Origin: Hyphococcus sp.
GTDB taxonomy: Bacteria; Pseudomonadota; Alphaproteobacteria; Caulobacterales; Parvularculaceae
DNA: 64,000 bases
Assembly: GCA_021776335.1 (NCBI GenBank)
Contig: JAJFGB010000001.1
Span: 427,431-491,430 of the forward strand
Direction of reading: 5' to 3'
A program made the translations under genes and the position numbers. Each line of letters begins with the position of its first letter. Position 1 is the stretch's first letter. Under the pieces are notes generated by a model. It had not been told where the DNA came from. It was given only the letters and a program-made list of their open reading frames with translations, and did not search any database. Shown here one piece after another: positions 34,624 to 39,781 of this stretch.

Positions 34624-36039
34624 ATGGCTGAGCATAGCGTTGATCTTGCGATTATTGGGTCCGGACCGGGGGGCTATGTGGCCGCAATCCGGGCGAGCCA
34701 GCTCGGCATGAAGGTCGCGATTGTGGAGCGTGACGCCCTGGGCGGTGTCTGCCTCAACTGGGGCTGTATCCCCACCAAGGCGCTTTTGCGGACGGCTGAA
34801 ATCTACACCAATATGAAGCATGCCGAGAGCTTTGGCCTTAAGGCCGACAATATCGGTTTTGATATCGACGCGGTGATCAAGCGCTCGCGCGGGGTTGCGA
34901 ACAAGCTTTCCGGCGGCATCGGCTATCTCATGAAAAAACATAAGGTGAAGGTGATTGAGGGGACTGCGCGTTTGGAAAAGGGCGCGGCTGCGCCCGTCGT
35001 CAAGGTGAAGACCAAAGACGGTGAAGACATGATCAAAGCCAAACATGTGATCCTGGCGACCGGCGCGAGGGCGCGCACAATCCCGCAGGCCGGACTTGAG
35101 CCGGACGGCAAGTTTGTCTGGACCGCAAAAGAAGCGATGGTGCCTGATGTGATGCCAAAGTCGCTGCTGGTGATCGGGTCCGGCGCCATCGGCATTGAGT
35201 TCGCAAGCTTTTACCGGGCGCTGGGCGCAGAGGTCACGGTCGTTGAAATGCTCGACCGCGTCTTGCCCGTGGAAGACGAAGAGATTTCAAAGCTCGCGGC
35301 AAAACAGTTCAAAAAACAGGGCATGAAACTCATCACCGGCGCCATGGTCGAAAAGCTCGACAAGTCCGGCGCGCTCGCCAAAGCGACTGTCAAAATGAAA
35401 GACGGCAAAACGGAAGTGATCGAAGCGGAACGTGTCATCCTTGCAGTCGGCATTGTCGGCAATACGGAAAATCTCGGGCTTGAGGCTGTCGGCGCCAAAG
35501 TTGATCGCGGTCATGTGGTGATCAATGAATGGATGGAAACAGGCGTTAAAGGCCTTTACGCCATTGGTGATCTTTGCGGGCCGCCATGGCTCGCTCATAA
35601 GGCATCGCATGAAGGCGTGATCTGCGTTGAAAAGATTGCGGGCAAGAATGATGTGCATCCGCTTGATATTTCGCTCATTCCCGGCTGCACCTATTGTCAG
35701 CCGCAGGTCGCATCCGTTGGCATGACCGAAGCGAAAGCCAAAGAAAATGGCCGCAAGGTCAAAGTCGGACGCTTCCCCTTTAACGGCAATGGCAAAGCGA
35801 TTGCGCTCGGCGAGCCTGAGGGATTGGTCAAGACGATCTTTGACGCAACAACTGGCGAATTACTCGGCGCCCATATGATCGGCGCGGAAGTCACCGAACT
35901 CATTCAGGGTTTCGGCATCGCCAAATCAATGGAAGCGGTCGAGGAAGACCTCATGCATGCGATCTTCCCGCATCCCACCTTAAGCGAGATGATGCATGAA
36001 TCTGTGCTCGATGCGTATGACCGGGTGATGCATATTTGA
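34624..36039 (+). CDS. lpdA: Dihydrolipoyl dehydrogenase (E3)
   Basis: 471 residues, AAGGA ribosome site. FAD site LAIIGSGPGGYVAAIRASQL, redox-active cysteines in GGVCLNWGCIPTKALL, NAD site LLVIGSGAIGIEFASFY, second FAD motif GLYAIGDLCGPPWLAHKASH, and the catalytic His-Glu pair in HAIFPHPTLSEMMHE. It reoxidises dihydrolipoyl groups of pyruvate and 2-oxoglutarate dehydrogenase complexes. None of those genes is adjacent, so this may be a separate or shared E3. The AT-rich defence-like pair begins 36 bases after its stop. Confidence 0.97.
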   Translation: MAEHSVDLAIIGSGPGGYVAAIRASQLGMKVAIVERDALGGVCLNWGCIPTKALLRTAEIYTNMKHAESFGLKADNIGFDIDAVIKRSRGVANKLSGGIGYLMKKHKVKVIEGTARLEKGAAAPVVKVKTKDGEDMIKAKHVILATGARARTIPQAGLEPDGKFVWTAKEAMVPDVMPKSLLVIGSGAIGIEFASFYRALGAEVTVVEMLDRVLPVEDEEISKLAAKQFKKQGMKLITGAMVEKLDKSGALAKATVKMKDGKTEVIEAERVILAVGIVGNTENLGLEAVGAKVDRGHVVINEWMETGVKGLYAIGDLCGPPWLAHKASHEGVICVEKIAGKNDVHPLDISLIPGCTYCQPQVASVGMTEAKAKENGRKVKVGRFPFNGNGKAIALGEPEGLVKTIFDATTGELLGAHMIGAEVTELIQGFGIAKSMEAVEEDLMHAIFPHPTLSEMMHESVLDAYDRVMHI

Positions 36040-36074
36040 TGGTTTTGGGACTGAATGACGATAGGTAGGAACGT

Positions 36075-37442
36075 ATGCGAATTAAATCATTTGAGGCCAA
36101 AAGTCTGCATGGCGTATTGAATTACAAGTTGAAGTTTGACCGCACGTTAAATTTTTTGACGGGAATAAACGGCTGTGGGAAAACGTCAGTTCTGAATGCT
36201 ATAGTTGCACTAATAACACCGTCATTGCAAAGGCTGTCTCACTTACGCTTTGATTCATTAGAATTAGAGATTACTTCTGAAGGAAAGCCTCTAACAATCA
36301 GTGCGACGCAAGAAAATGAAATGATTACGCTTGCATGCTCGGAATCCGATTCAAAACTCAAATTCCAACGATTTGCGGTTGAAGAATATTACGCATCCTA
36401 CAAAGAGCAAGAACAAGAAGCCGATTACTACAAAAATATTGTTATGCAAGAAGCGGCGCATGGAGTCGTAGAGATAATATCGTCTCTGCCGACCCCCATG
36501 TTTCTAGGATTAGATAGGCGAGCGATCAACCTCGACGAGAAGATGTTATTGGGTGCGCGTCGGACGCCTATTTCTCGTCGCCGGCGTAATATCTTTTCCC
36601 CGTCTATTGCGGTCAGCTTGCGTGACGCAGTTCGATTGGCGGTAAACAAAAGGCAAGAAAGCATCCTCGAGGTGGCAAATCTTGGGGACATATTGAGGGG
36701 CGACCTAATACTAGAATTGCTTCGTGTGGAACCGGTAAGCGCAGACGCCGGTACTTACTCGCTGCCTACAAAGGAAGACAGAAAAAATTTCGACAAACTG
36801 AAAAAAGATATTCGTGACTTGGACAAGATACTGGATATACCGCAGGCTGAAATAATAGCACAGATTAATCCCTTGATTGAGGCGTTGGAAGGTTACTTGT
36901 CGAAAATTCCGACGAAGGTGGTGAGTCGCAACAATAAACCACGTGACCTAACCCCACCTGAAATTGAAGGAATTGTGGGTTGGGGTTCGAATAGAATCCA
37001 GTTGAAAAAAATACAGGTATTAGCAAGCTTAGTTTCAAAGTTTAACGAGAGGAGGGAAACGCTTCTGGAGGCGACTGAAAGCTACCTGGCATTGTTGAAT
37101 AAATTCCTCTCTGACAGTGGGAAACAAGTAAAATTTGCGGAGAAGGGTAAAATATTCTTTACTCTGAGGAATTTTGAAGGCGAGAGGGATTTGGATAATT
37201 TGTCGTCTGGTGAGGCGCAAATATTTGTTATCTTAACGCATTTGGCATTTCACCCTCAGGCTCGTGAGGACAATGTTTTCATTATCGACGAGCCCGAGCT
37301 CTCGCTGCACGTGCAATGGCAAGAAATGTTTGTAGATAGCGTTATGTCTGTGAATCCAGACGTTCAATACATCATGGCAACACATTCCCCTTCAATTATT
37401 ATGGAACGAATTGATAGTTGTATTGATCTGGCATTGAATTGA
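36075..37442 (+). CDS. ABC/SMC-type AAA ATPase, AriA-like component of a PARIS-type defence pair
   Basis: 455 residues, GTAGGA ribosome site. Walker A LTGINGCGKTSVLNA (Lys36), ABC signature LSSGEAQ (about 376), Walker B VFIIDEPELSLH (about 401-413) and switch His437 in ATHSPSI make it a RecF/OLD-like ATPase with no fused Toprim domain. The middle is coiled-coil-like (DKLKKDIRDLDKILDIPQAE). The next gene supplies a DUF4435/Toprim protein, giving the AriA-AriB layout of PARIS, in which the ATPase holds the nuclease and releases it on sensing a phage protein. The gene is clearly AT-rich (36241-36300 has 20 G+C in 60) beside GC-rich lpdA, a sign of transfer. Confidence 0.85.
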   Translation: MRIKSFEAKSLHGVLNYKLKFDRTLNFLTGINGCGKTSVLNAIVALITPSLQRLSHLRFDSLELEITSEGKPLTISATQENEMITLACSESDSKLKFQRFAVEEYYASYKEQEQEADYYKNIVMQEAAHGVVEIISSLPTPMFLGLDRRAINLDEKMLLGARRTPISRRRRNIFSPSIAVSLRDAVRLAVNKRQESILEVANLGDILRGDLILELLRVEPVSADAGTYSLPTKEDRKNFDKLKKDIRDLDKILDIPQAEIIAQINPLIEALEGYLSKIPTKVVSRNNKPRDLTPPEIEGIVGWGSNRIQLKKIQVLASLVSKFNERRETLLEATESYLALLNKFLSDSGKQVKFAEKGKIFFTLRNFEGERDLDNLSSGEAQIFVILTHLAFHPQAREDNVFIIDEPELSLHVQWQEMFVDSVMSVNPDVQYIMATHSPSIIMERIDSCIDLALN

Positions 37443-37458
37443 TGTTGATGATTTAATC

Positions 37459-38310
37459 ATGGTTAGATATTCATCCAAATCGGCCAAAGCGCTTGGATTT
37501 CTCAAACGTCATTACAATGACATTGAAATCTATGTTGAGGATACCGGGTGCCCGCAGCTCTGGCTGGTGTTGCTTAGACGGTTTCTACCCGAGGGCGTCA
37601 CACTTTCGAGCGTAAATCCTCTTGGAGGAAAAGAGGCGGTACTAAAGGCATGCCGTAACGATCAGAAAGCTGATGGACGGAAGCGTCTATACGTAATAGA
37701 TGGCGATTTTGATTTTGCACTGAACCGACAGAAGCCACGATTGAAGTTTCTTTACAGATTGAGAGCATACAGTGTCGAGACTCTTTTATTGTATGAAGAT
37801 GCGTTCGTCCAGCTGGGGCTTACATTTAGCTCGGCGCAGAACGACGCAGACGTAAAACAACTATTTGATTTTGAGCAGTGCATCGATGAAATCGAACGCA
37901 AATTATGGCCGTTGTTTATAATTTATTTGGCTGCGAATGAACTGAGTCCATCAGTGAAGACTGTAGGTCGTTCTGCAAGCAAGCTTTATGAAGTCGTTGG
38001 GCAAGAAACGAATTACTCATCGCGGAAAGTCATTGTTCGAGCAATACAGGTGGCGCGAGAAATTTGTAACGAGCATAGCCGCGCTGATTTTTCGGCAATG
38101 ATCCGAGTGTTGCGTCAGAATGTATATAGGAAAAAAATTAGAGAATGGGTTTCAAGTAAGGATTATATCATTCCATTGCTTCATATTAAAGTCCGCAAAA
38201 AGTTACAGTTTGCAGGAAGAATCGATAATTTGAAAGTGTTCCTTGCTAACCATGTTGACCCAGTTCGGGAGCCATACTTAGCGCGGCGATTAAAGATGTC
38301 TTTGGTGTAG
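37459..38310 (+). CDS. DUF4435 Toprim-like effector, AriB-like component of a PARIS-type defence pair
   Basis: 283 residues, starting 16 bases after the ATPase stop. The N-terminal third has the DUF4435/Toprim layout: IEIYVEDTGCPQLW with Glu27, then SSVNPLGGKEAVLKACRND, then LYVIDGDFDFAL with Asp81, Asp83 and Asp85. The rest is helical (SVETLLLYEDAFVQLG and basic KKIREWVSSK). In PARIS, AriB is the metal-dependent nuclease that cuts host tRNA when released. Similar two-gene ATPase/DUF4435 pairs outside PARIS exist, so the exact system is not certain. Same AT-rich composition as its partner. Confidence 0.85.
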   Translation: MVRYSSKSAKALGFLKRHYNDIEIYVEDTGCPQLWLVLLRRFLPEGVTLSSVNPLGGKEAVLKACRNDQKADGRKRLYVIDGDFDFALNRQKPRLKFLYRLRAYSVETLLLYEDAFVQLGLTFSSAQNDADVKQLFDFEQCIDEIERKLWPLFIIYLAANELSPSVKTVGRSASKLYEVVGQETNYSSRKVIVRAIQVAREICNEHSRADFSAMIRVLRQNVYRKKIREWVSSKDYIIPLLHIKVRKKLQFAGRIDNLKVFLANHVDPVREPYLARRLKMSLV

Positions 38311-38450
38311 GCGAAGGTGCTCTCGCGACGGGGGCCGCTGACCCGCAATCAGGTGGGCGATTGCAGCTGGATCCCGGGTCGCCGTGGTTTGATCGCATTC
38401 GCGATCGGGGCCTAGGATGACCGGCGATGGATGCGTTTCGTGCGTTTCCA

Positions 38451-38566
38451 TTCTTCGAGGCTTGCCGTTGGCAAGCGCCTCAGGATGAGGGGCGCATATT
38501 AAACAAGACAACCCTCATCCTGAGGTGCGACCCCGGGCTTGATCCGGGGGAGCCGCGAAGGATGGC
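38451..38566. repeat. Pair of inverted dispersed palindromic repeats
   Basis: Left unit 38451-38490 reads TTCTTCGAGGCTTGCCGTTG, then GCAAGCGCCTCAGGATGAGG. Right unit 38513-38566 starts CTCATCCTGAGGTGCGACCC and ends GAGCCGCGAAGGATG. The units are roughly reverse complements (TTCGAGG...CCTCAGGATGAG against CTCATCCTGAGG...CGAAGGAT). A further palindrome GATCGCATTCGCGATC lies just left. Such repeats are common between genes in this bacterial group. The whole 556 bases between the DUF4435 gene and the MNT-HEPN gene contain only these and no gene I can support. Confidence 0.7.
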
Positions 38567-38866
38567 GACAAGAGAGAAGCGCCGATCCCTAAGTCTTCGC
38601 CCACCTTGCCACCACCCCCAAACCAGTGCGAATTCGCGGCAGTCCGGCCCGATCCACCCAGCCTTGGTCGGCCAAGTAAAACCCCGGTAATTGGCGAGGC
38701 GCGTGATGCCCTCTATGAACAGCATCATGAAAGCCGGGTTTGATCATCTGCCGCAAGCGCGGCCGGTCGTTGGTATATTGCTGGCGCCGCCCGGCGGGTC
38801 AGTATAGATTCGAACGCCTTACGCAACCGCCCGGAACGAATACGTAACATGGCTCCGCTCAACTAT

Positions 38867-39781
38867 ATGAAAACAGACATCGACCACCTGCCGGAGAAAA
38901 AGCAGCGCGAGCTGGCGCGTATTCAGGAAATCCTGTTTGAGGAGTTCGAGCTTGCCAAGGGCGCGAGCAAAAAGACCTATAATCTGAAAGGCCGGATTCA
39001 AAAGATTGTGCTGTTTGGCTCCTACGCCCGCGGTGACTGGGTTGATGAGCTGGGCAAGACCGCCAAGGGCTATCAGAGCGATTTCGATTTGCTGATCGTC
39101 GTCAATTACGCCGAGCTGACCGACATGGCGACCTACTGGTACAAGGCAGAGGATCGGATCATCCGCGACAAAACTATCAAGACGCCGATAGGTCTCATCA
39201 TCCATTCCCTTGCCGAAGTGAACGAAAAGCTGGCCCAGGGGCAATATTTCTTTACGGACATCGTGCGTGAAGGAATAGCTCTCTATGAACTCGCCCGCCA
39301 TCGCTTTGTCGATCCGAAACCGCTCAGCGCGAAAGAAGCCTGTGAAACGGCGAAGGACTATTTTGAAGAGTGGTTCCCATTAGCGGAACATGCCTTGAAA
39401 TTGTCGCGCGACAGCCTCGACGACAATGTCCCCAGACACGCTGCCTTTATGCTTCATCAGGCAGTCGAAGGATTTTATGCCTGCTTTCTGTTGGTTCTAA
39501 CAAACTACAGTCCCTCTACACATAATGTCAGACGCCTGCGCGCGCTGGCCGAGGAAAAGGACGCGCGGTTTCGCGACATCTGGCCCGACGAGGACAAGTT
39601 CCAGCGCCGCAGCTTCGAGCTGTTAAAAGACGCTTATGTGAAAGCGCGCTATTCAAAACACTACAAGATCACAGAAGAAGAACTGACCTGGCTCGGCGAG
39701 CGGGCAGACGCGCTCAAGGCGCAGGTGGAAACCGTCTGCGCCGAACGCCTTGCAAAACTGGCGAAAGAGGCGGGGGCGTAA
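38867..39781 (+). CDS. One-piece MNT-HEPN protein (nucleotidyltransferase fused to HEPN)
   Basis: 304 residues; a methionine 6 codons upstream is an alternative, but the chosen start MKTDIDHLPEKKQRELARI looks family-like. Nucleotidyltransferase domain: IVLFGSYARGDWVDE with Gly51-Ser52, and SDFDLLIVV with metal-binding Asp72 and Asp74. C-terminal HEPN domain: PRHAAFMLHQAVEGFYACFL, with an R-x6-H arrangement, and STHNVRRLRALA. Separate MntA/HepT pairs are toxin-antitoxins in which MntA adenylylates the HEPN RNase. Here both are one chain, a form widespread in proteobacteria whose toxicity is not established. It neighbours the PARIS-like pair, in an island-like setting. Confidence 0.88.
   Translation: MKTDIDHLPEKKQRELARIQEILFEEFELAKGASKKTYNLKGRIQKIVLFGSYARGDWVDELGKTAKGYQSDFDLLIVVNYAELTDMATYWYKAEDRIIRDKTIKTPIGLIIHSLAEVNEKLAQGQYFFTDIVREGIALYELARHRFVDPKPLSAKEACETAKDYFEEWFPLAEHALKLSRDSLDDNVPRHAAFMLHQAVEGFYACFLLVLTNYSPSTHNVRRLRALAEEKDARFRDIWPDEDKFQRRSFELLKDAYVKARYSKHYKITEEELTWLGERADALKAQVETVCAERLAKLAKEAGA

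Follow-up and report, generated by a model that had tools for sequence, protein, structure and literature searches.

PARIS, the described system closest to the locus treated here, consists in E. coli of an ATPase, AriA, and of AriB, which stays caged in AriA and is set free by a phage protein, Ocr for example (PMC11455837, PMC12409363). Freed AriB nicks tRNA-Lys(UUU), tRNA-Thr(UGU) and, to a lesser extent, tRNA-Asn(GUU), near U36AAUC/A41 (PMC11455837, PMC12409363). For detection, the rule given in PMC9122126 combines an ATPase scoring at least 32 bits with AAA_15 or at least 27 bits with AAA_21 and a DUF4435 protein scoring at least 27 bits.

In this study, we analysed a window of 64,000 nucleotides from a Hyphococcus sp. 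genome (G000 below), at G000:C1:427431-491430, in which two adjacent genes, ariA and ariB, very probably form a two-gene PARIS system with the tRNA-nicking mode of its E. coli counterpart. We read the pair as a divergent member of this known system and infer its mechanism, targets and trigger by analogy. As a system it is ordinary; the interest lies in its site behind the core gene lpdA, which matters more. The features are as follows:

34624-36039, plus strand: lpdA, from its sequence a putative dihydrolipoamide dehydrogenase and core gene, whose 3' end is the border of the variable site
36040-36074, plus strand: the 35 bp that lead from the stop of lpdA to the start of ariA, read from the sequence
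36075-37442, plus strand: ariA, an ABC/OLD-type ATPase of 455 aa, proposed hexameric sensor and cage (profiles, motifs and fold)
37459-38310, plus strand: ariB, a DUF4435 Toprim nuclease of 283 aa, proposed tRNase effector with E27, D81 and D83 at the predicted active site (profiles and fold)
38448-38567, no strand assigned: dispersed repeat on the right flank of the pair, with near-copies of about 79-98% identity elsewhere in its own genome
38849-39781, plus strand: fused nucleotidyltransferase-HEPN (NT-HEPN) gene, an accessory neighbour outside PARIS (PADLOC and Pfam profiles)

The ariA-ariB pair and its relatives

The first-pass annotation had placed two ORFs here, 16 bp apart and straight after lpdA, in an AT-rich stretch without an integrase nearby. 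All of this agrees with our results: the two frames lie where it put them with that 16-bp spacing, 35 bp separate the lpdA stop from the ariA start, positions 36241-36300 hold exactly 20 G+C, and no integrase was noticed by eye among the ORFs of at least 150 aa between 20000 and 64000. The GC content is 0.431 for ariA and 0.437 for ariB, against 0.558 for lpdA and 0.547 for the whole window. Because the pair lies on the same strand as lpdA and only 35 bp past it, read-through is possible, and from this context ariA and ariB may be transcribed in that way.

AriA is the best PADLOC model for the ATPase (113 bits, E 3.8e-33), and the three best sequences in a phmmer search of the PDB are AriA chains (8ux9, 8v45 and 8v46, E 5e-18 to 1e-17). 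The ATPase matches 152 PADLOC models at E of 1 or below, and AAA_15/AAA_21 ATPases are common to many systems. The nucleotide motifs that the first-pass annotation had described are all present. Across the five aligned proteins the invariant positions are G30, N32, G33, G35, K36 and T37 of Walker A, the signature S378-G379-E380, DEPELSLH at 405-412 and His437. An AlphaFold2 model, built from a five-sequence alignment and of moderate confidence (pLDDT 71.8, pTM 0.64), gave 1050 Foldseek matches in the PDB, 193 of them at E of 0.001 or below. The top 15 are chains of the PARIS entries 8v45, 8v46, 8v47, 8v49 and 8ux9 (E 1e-16 to 1.5e-12), and chains of retron I-A and Ec83 come next.

The second protein matches a single PADLOC model, AriB (78 bits, E 2.2e-22), although this model may hold little beyond Pfam DUF4435. 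Its Pfam DUF4435 score of 77.2 bits, with the 71.1 bits of the ATPase for AAA_15 and 73.6 bits for AAA_21, passes the published thresholds with both genes present, the scores being compared with those thresholds directly and not through a MacSyFinder run. The AlphaFold2 model of AriB, also from five sequences and of moderate confidence (pLDDT 79.6, pTM 0.76), has a predicted Toprim fold with the catalytic Glu and DxD. Only two of its 258 Foldseek matches in the PDB reach E of 0.001 or below, 8ux9_A and 8v46_D (probability 1.00; TM 0.44 and 0.43, 14-15% identity, rmsd about 12); we take these to be AriB chains because the AriA chains of both entries are others. Of the residues Glu27 and Asp81/83/85 named by the first-pass annotation, E27, D81 and D83 are invariant in all five aligned proteins. 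D85 does not hold, since the four others carry N, Y, D and E there, and the motif is really D81-x-D83. By its place in the motif, E27 would correspond to E26 of E. coli AriB, while no counterparts of K60 and K64 of that protein could be mapped on the window's AriB.

Sequence comparison did not reach the solved E. coli AriB: no PDB search found its chain, whether with the protein alone, a two-row or a five-row profile. The same was true of the homologue in G506, whose best PDB match was a nuclease-domain protein (E 0.0066). Such detectability lies outside the published rule, but its lack marks this AriB as divergent. Taken together, the best PADLOC profiles with no non-defence family on top, the published thresholds, and both predicted folds being closest to chains of PARIS entries uphold the AriA/AriB reading of the first-pass annotation.

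A homologue of the window's AriB occurs in one of 40 relatives, namely its own genome, and in two of 385 genomes of the class, its own included. The 39 other relatives, 23 of them of the same genus, gave none, which bears out the expectation that the pair is not conserved. DUF4435 of any kind is found in nine of the 385 class genomes (seven over the cut-off), in 23 of 398 genomes of the phylum (18 over the cut-off) and in four of the 28 genomes of the genus, its own included; in the other three it lies in open frames of 486-582 aa. Viral contigs yielded 63 stretches with the pattern and no relative among them. Genome contigs yielded 143 and one relative (L148), apparently the same locus as that of G401, and plasmids gave two Lactococcus DUF4435 matches (about 26%). 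Four more adjacent ATPase-DUF4435 pairs were found in other genera, in G401 (L089), G457 (L151), G506 (L149) and G595 (L152). They share the gene order, can be aligned along most of both proteins, and show 23-29% identity to the window's AriB and 26-32% to its AriA.

These data allow other readings to be weighed. The pair might be a toxin-antitoxin or defence system of a sister ATPase-DUF4435 type, with the PARIS fold but acting on another nucleic acid (DNA, rRNA or another tRNA) in response to another kind of trigger. The lack of detectable similarity to solved AriB would fit this, as would a DUF4435 family that includes both two-gene forms and longer open frames. However, fold and gene order are closest to PARIS, the catalytic E and DxD are retained, and the E. 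coli target motif is present in host tRNAs, so that we hold a sister system to be rather unlikely. A decayed or silent remnant is less likely still: a consensus scan of the 35-bp lpdA-ariA gap found no sigma-70-like promoter, but the frames are intact, the motifs are kept, and the position behind lpdA allows read-through.

Other ATPase systems fit less well. It has been considered that a Septu- or retron-PtuA-like ATPase merely stands beside an unrelated DUF4435 gene, since PtuA models reach 86 bits on the ATPase in PADLOC and retron I-A ATPase chains come right after those of PARIS among the fold matches. This reading, already disfavoured, is scarcely credible: AriA scores above PtuA in the PADLOC, PDB sequence and PDB fold comparisons, and the same ATPase-DUF4435 pairing recurs in the four other genomes. 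Furthermore, the partner is a DUF4435 protein instead of an HNH PtuB, no reverse transcriptase showed up next to the pair, and the next neighbours are lpdA and the NT-HEPN gene. Gabija and OLD have ATPase and Toprim in a single chain (GajA/OLD); here, ATPase and DUF4435 are separate proteins and no Toprim family is among the Pfam matches of the ATPase. PARIS, with intact nucleotide motifs and AriA as the closest of the ATPases, is the reading we keep.

Host tRNAs and the proposed mode of action

By analogy with E. coli PARIS, AriA would act as an ATP-binding cage that keeps AriB inactive. A phage protein recognised by AriA would lead to the release or activation of AriB, which would then dimerise. 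Its Toprim site (E27, D81 and D83), presumably metal-dependent as in the model system, would introduce nicks into the anticodon stem of host tRNAs, and the resulting stop of translation would end the infection. The host tRNAs give a direct prediction for the targets: Lys(UUU), Thr(UGU) and Asn(GUU) have exactly UAAUCA at positions 36-41, as does a second Asn(GUU) sequence. Among five other host tRNAs, Arg(CCU) has UAAUCU and Thr(CGU) UAAUGA; the departure from the motif is greater in Thr(GGU), Arg(UCU) and Met. We predict on this basis that the window's AriB could cleave the Lys(UUU), Thr(UGU) and Asn(GUU) tRNAs of its host. A divergent alphaproteobacterial PARIS can help to find out whether the family has kept its triggers and tRNA targets.

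A separate observation concerns an array of 16 tRNAs in 2.3 kb (G000:C1:127249-129578, locus L198 9250-11579), on the same contig about 300 kb from the window. Its tRNAs have divergent sequences and odd D arms. At positions 36-41 its Lys(UUU), Thr(UGU) and Asn(GUU) members read UAAGCU, UAAGCA and UAACCG, so that U39 of the AriB motif is altered in all three. U39 is altered in the tRNA-Lys of phage T5 too (PMC12409363). Arrays of tRNAs are known elsewhere and are defined as having at least 20 tRNAs (PMC5966550). Within the 28 genomes of the genus, with at most 10 candidates scored per genome, a full-length DNA match to the array was found only in G000. The idea that the array might protect its cell against the resident PARIS is weak, because G001, which lacks PARIS, has a 23-tRNA cluster of its own; there, Lys is changed and Thr and Asn are unchanged. 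The G001 contig C17 (148771 bases) has tRNA genes widely spaced along the stretches read and may be a large phage that ended up in the same bin as the genome.

The variable site behind lpdA

The first-pass annotation had regarded the pair as gained by recombination. Comparison of the lpdA 3' flank among relatives supports acquisition, as the site is variable across the genus; recombination as the route of entry is supported only in part. The best match of lpdA has 63-100% identity in 23 of 24 genomes (33% in the 24th, G005), and its 3' end was located in 26 of 28 genus genomes, G005 and G015 being the exceptions; in G420, where another contig carries a second lpdA-like gene, the closer one was used. 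Judged by eye from ORF lists, a short insert, AT-rich for the most part, begins no more than 0.8 kb after lpdA in 15 of the 26 (G000, G003, G004, G006, G008, G009, G011, G012, G014, G017, G021, G022, G420, G422 and G423), and it has the orientation of lpdA in all except G011. The other 11 are G001, G002 (NT-HEPN), G007 (amino-acid permease), G010, G013, G016, G018, G019, G020, G023 and G421. Downstream DNA is short in G019 (284 bp), G010 (596 bp) and G011 (1089 bp). G017, the closest relative within the genus by lpdA (93% protein identity), has a different AT-rich gene behind it; its MAPEG-PNPOx region, which lies to the right of the site in the window, is on another contig, and the two contigs are not joined.

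Profile scans of 20 of the 23 insert proteins, with matches at the level of genes and not of whole systems, together with the PARIS pair of G000 put defence genes, recognised ones or candidates, in nine of the 26 genomes; these are of seven kinds, and those of G021, G022 and G422 are candidates only:

G000: PARIS
G008: type II-A retron (NDT 244 bits, RT 388 bits)
G423: another type II-A retron (122 and 485 bits)
G004: DarT1-NADAR (DarT 68 bits in Pfam and 30 bits in PADLOC; DarT1-associated NADAR antitoxin 259 bits)
G009: PD-Lambda-5 A (278 bits)
G420: OLD/Gabija-like ATPase (GajA 69.4 bits, AriA 69.5 bits; a match at the ATPase level only)
G422: DEDDh-BRCT, candidate PDC-S48 (118 bits)
G021 and G022: RelA/SpoT, candidate PDC-S33 (53 and 31 bits)

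The scanned insert proteins of G003 (L038), G006 (L032), G012 (L042), G014 (L035) and G017 (L048) had no match, and that of G011 (L043) had a weak one of 24 bits; these six inserts, without a convincing family match, are candidates for unknown defence genes. No integrase was recognised among the 20 scanned proteins or, by eye from protein starts, in the ORFs downstream of lpdA.

Base composition sets the site apart from the one control gene, pntB, which was compared in this respect only. GC below 0.50 in the first 1 kb was found in 12 of 25 lpdA flanks (G019 omitted as too short, G010 included with 596 bp) vs one of 26 pntB flanks. The median difference between flank and own gene was -0.111 for lpdA vs +0.016 for pntB (Mann-Whitney p 6.7e-8; raw GC p 0.0015), p values that are indicative only, the genomes being related.

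To the right of the pair, the NT-HEPN gene has a homologue directly behind lpdA in G002. The gene is multi-copy: G000 has four matches, counting that of the window, and G017 has at least six, at 73-78% DNA identity to the window's. It was considered as a possible transposable unit, the homology covering about 67 bp upstream of the start codon and most of the gene.

In one genus, a site behind a central metabolic gene holds PARIS, retrons, DarT1-NADAR, PD-Lambda-5 A, an OLD-like ATPase and unknown genes. It can be mined for new systems and may reveal how defence genes are captured without a resident integrase.

Entry of inserts and known hotspots

In three of the 26 genomes the 3' end of lpdA occurs a second time, displaced to a place downstream of the intact gene: G007 (L033), G009 (L040) and G423 (L088), at 1.57, 0.43 and 0.64 kb and beginning 146, 123 and 122 bp short of the end of the gene, respectively. 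Two of these are most like the lpdA of their own genome (about 90%), and the third is about equally like that of G022 and its own. An AT-rich cassette begins about 54 bp (G009) and about 30 bp (G423) past the displaced end, and the displaced ends with their adjoining cassettes suggest joining inside the lpdA 3' end. Several findings argue the other way. The DNA that separates the two copies in G007, G009 and G423 is not AT-rich (GC 0.58, 0.53 and 0.68) and holds no known defence gene in G007 (a permease) or G423 (a 177-aa ORF), 23 of the 26 genomes are without a second copy, and no integrase was recognised. Behind the window's cassette, a protein search found no leftover lpdA 3' end, and DNA matches on the plus strand stayed below those of shuffles. 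A 28-point minus-strand match at 39290-39321, inside the NT-HEPN gene, was dismissed as chance, being reached by 4 of 200 two-strand shuffles. When the 24 other flanks were scanned for lpdA ends with one-strand shuffles, only the three displaced ends stood out.

The codons at the end of lpdA are also low in GC3. Over the 26 genomes, GC3 of the last 15 codons averages 0.59 vs 0.77 in the body of the gene (p 1.4e-5, amino-acid content not factored out); the values for pntB are 0.71 and 0.71. From the preceding 15 codons to the last 15, GC3 passes from 0.84 to 0.59 in lpdA and from 0.77 to 0.71 in pntB. These values do not show that AT-rich cassettes recently replaced the end of lpdA, since low GC3 is equal with and without an insert (p 0.92).

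One hypothesis, which we consider doubtful and put forward tentatively, is that the lpdA 3' end serves as a landing pad on which cassettes poor in promoters and without an integrase settle. Each would bring along an lpdA 3' end of its own to act as half-site, be joined within the last 40-50 or so codons by a recombinase in trans or by homologous recombination, and be expressed by read-through from lpdA, PARIS being one swappable cassette among many.

Compared with PARIS of the E. coli B185 type (8ux9, 8v45 and 8v46), the window's pair has the same adjacent AAA_15/21 ATPase followed by DUF4435, the same Walker A, signature, Walker B, switch His and Toprim E and DxD, and its best fold match in both subunits. 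It differs in an AriB beyond sequence detection against the solved one, and in lying behind an alphaproteobacterial core gene and not in a P4-like satellite. As for the site, none of the titles and abstract openings listed in a literature search reported an lpdA hotspot. The defence hotspots described for the core genome of Pseudomonas aeruginosa (PMC10250203) and for P2/P4 (PMC9122126) differ from the lpdA site, which usually holds one short insert with no integrase noticed nearby; on the other hand, they share with it a fixed position occupied by different defence systems from genome to genome.
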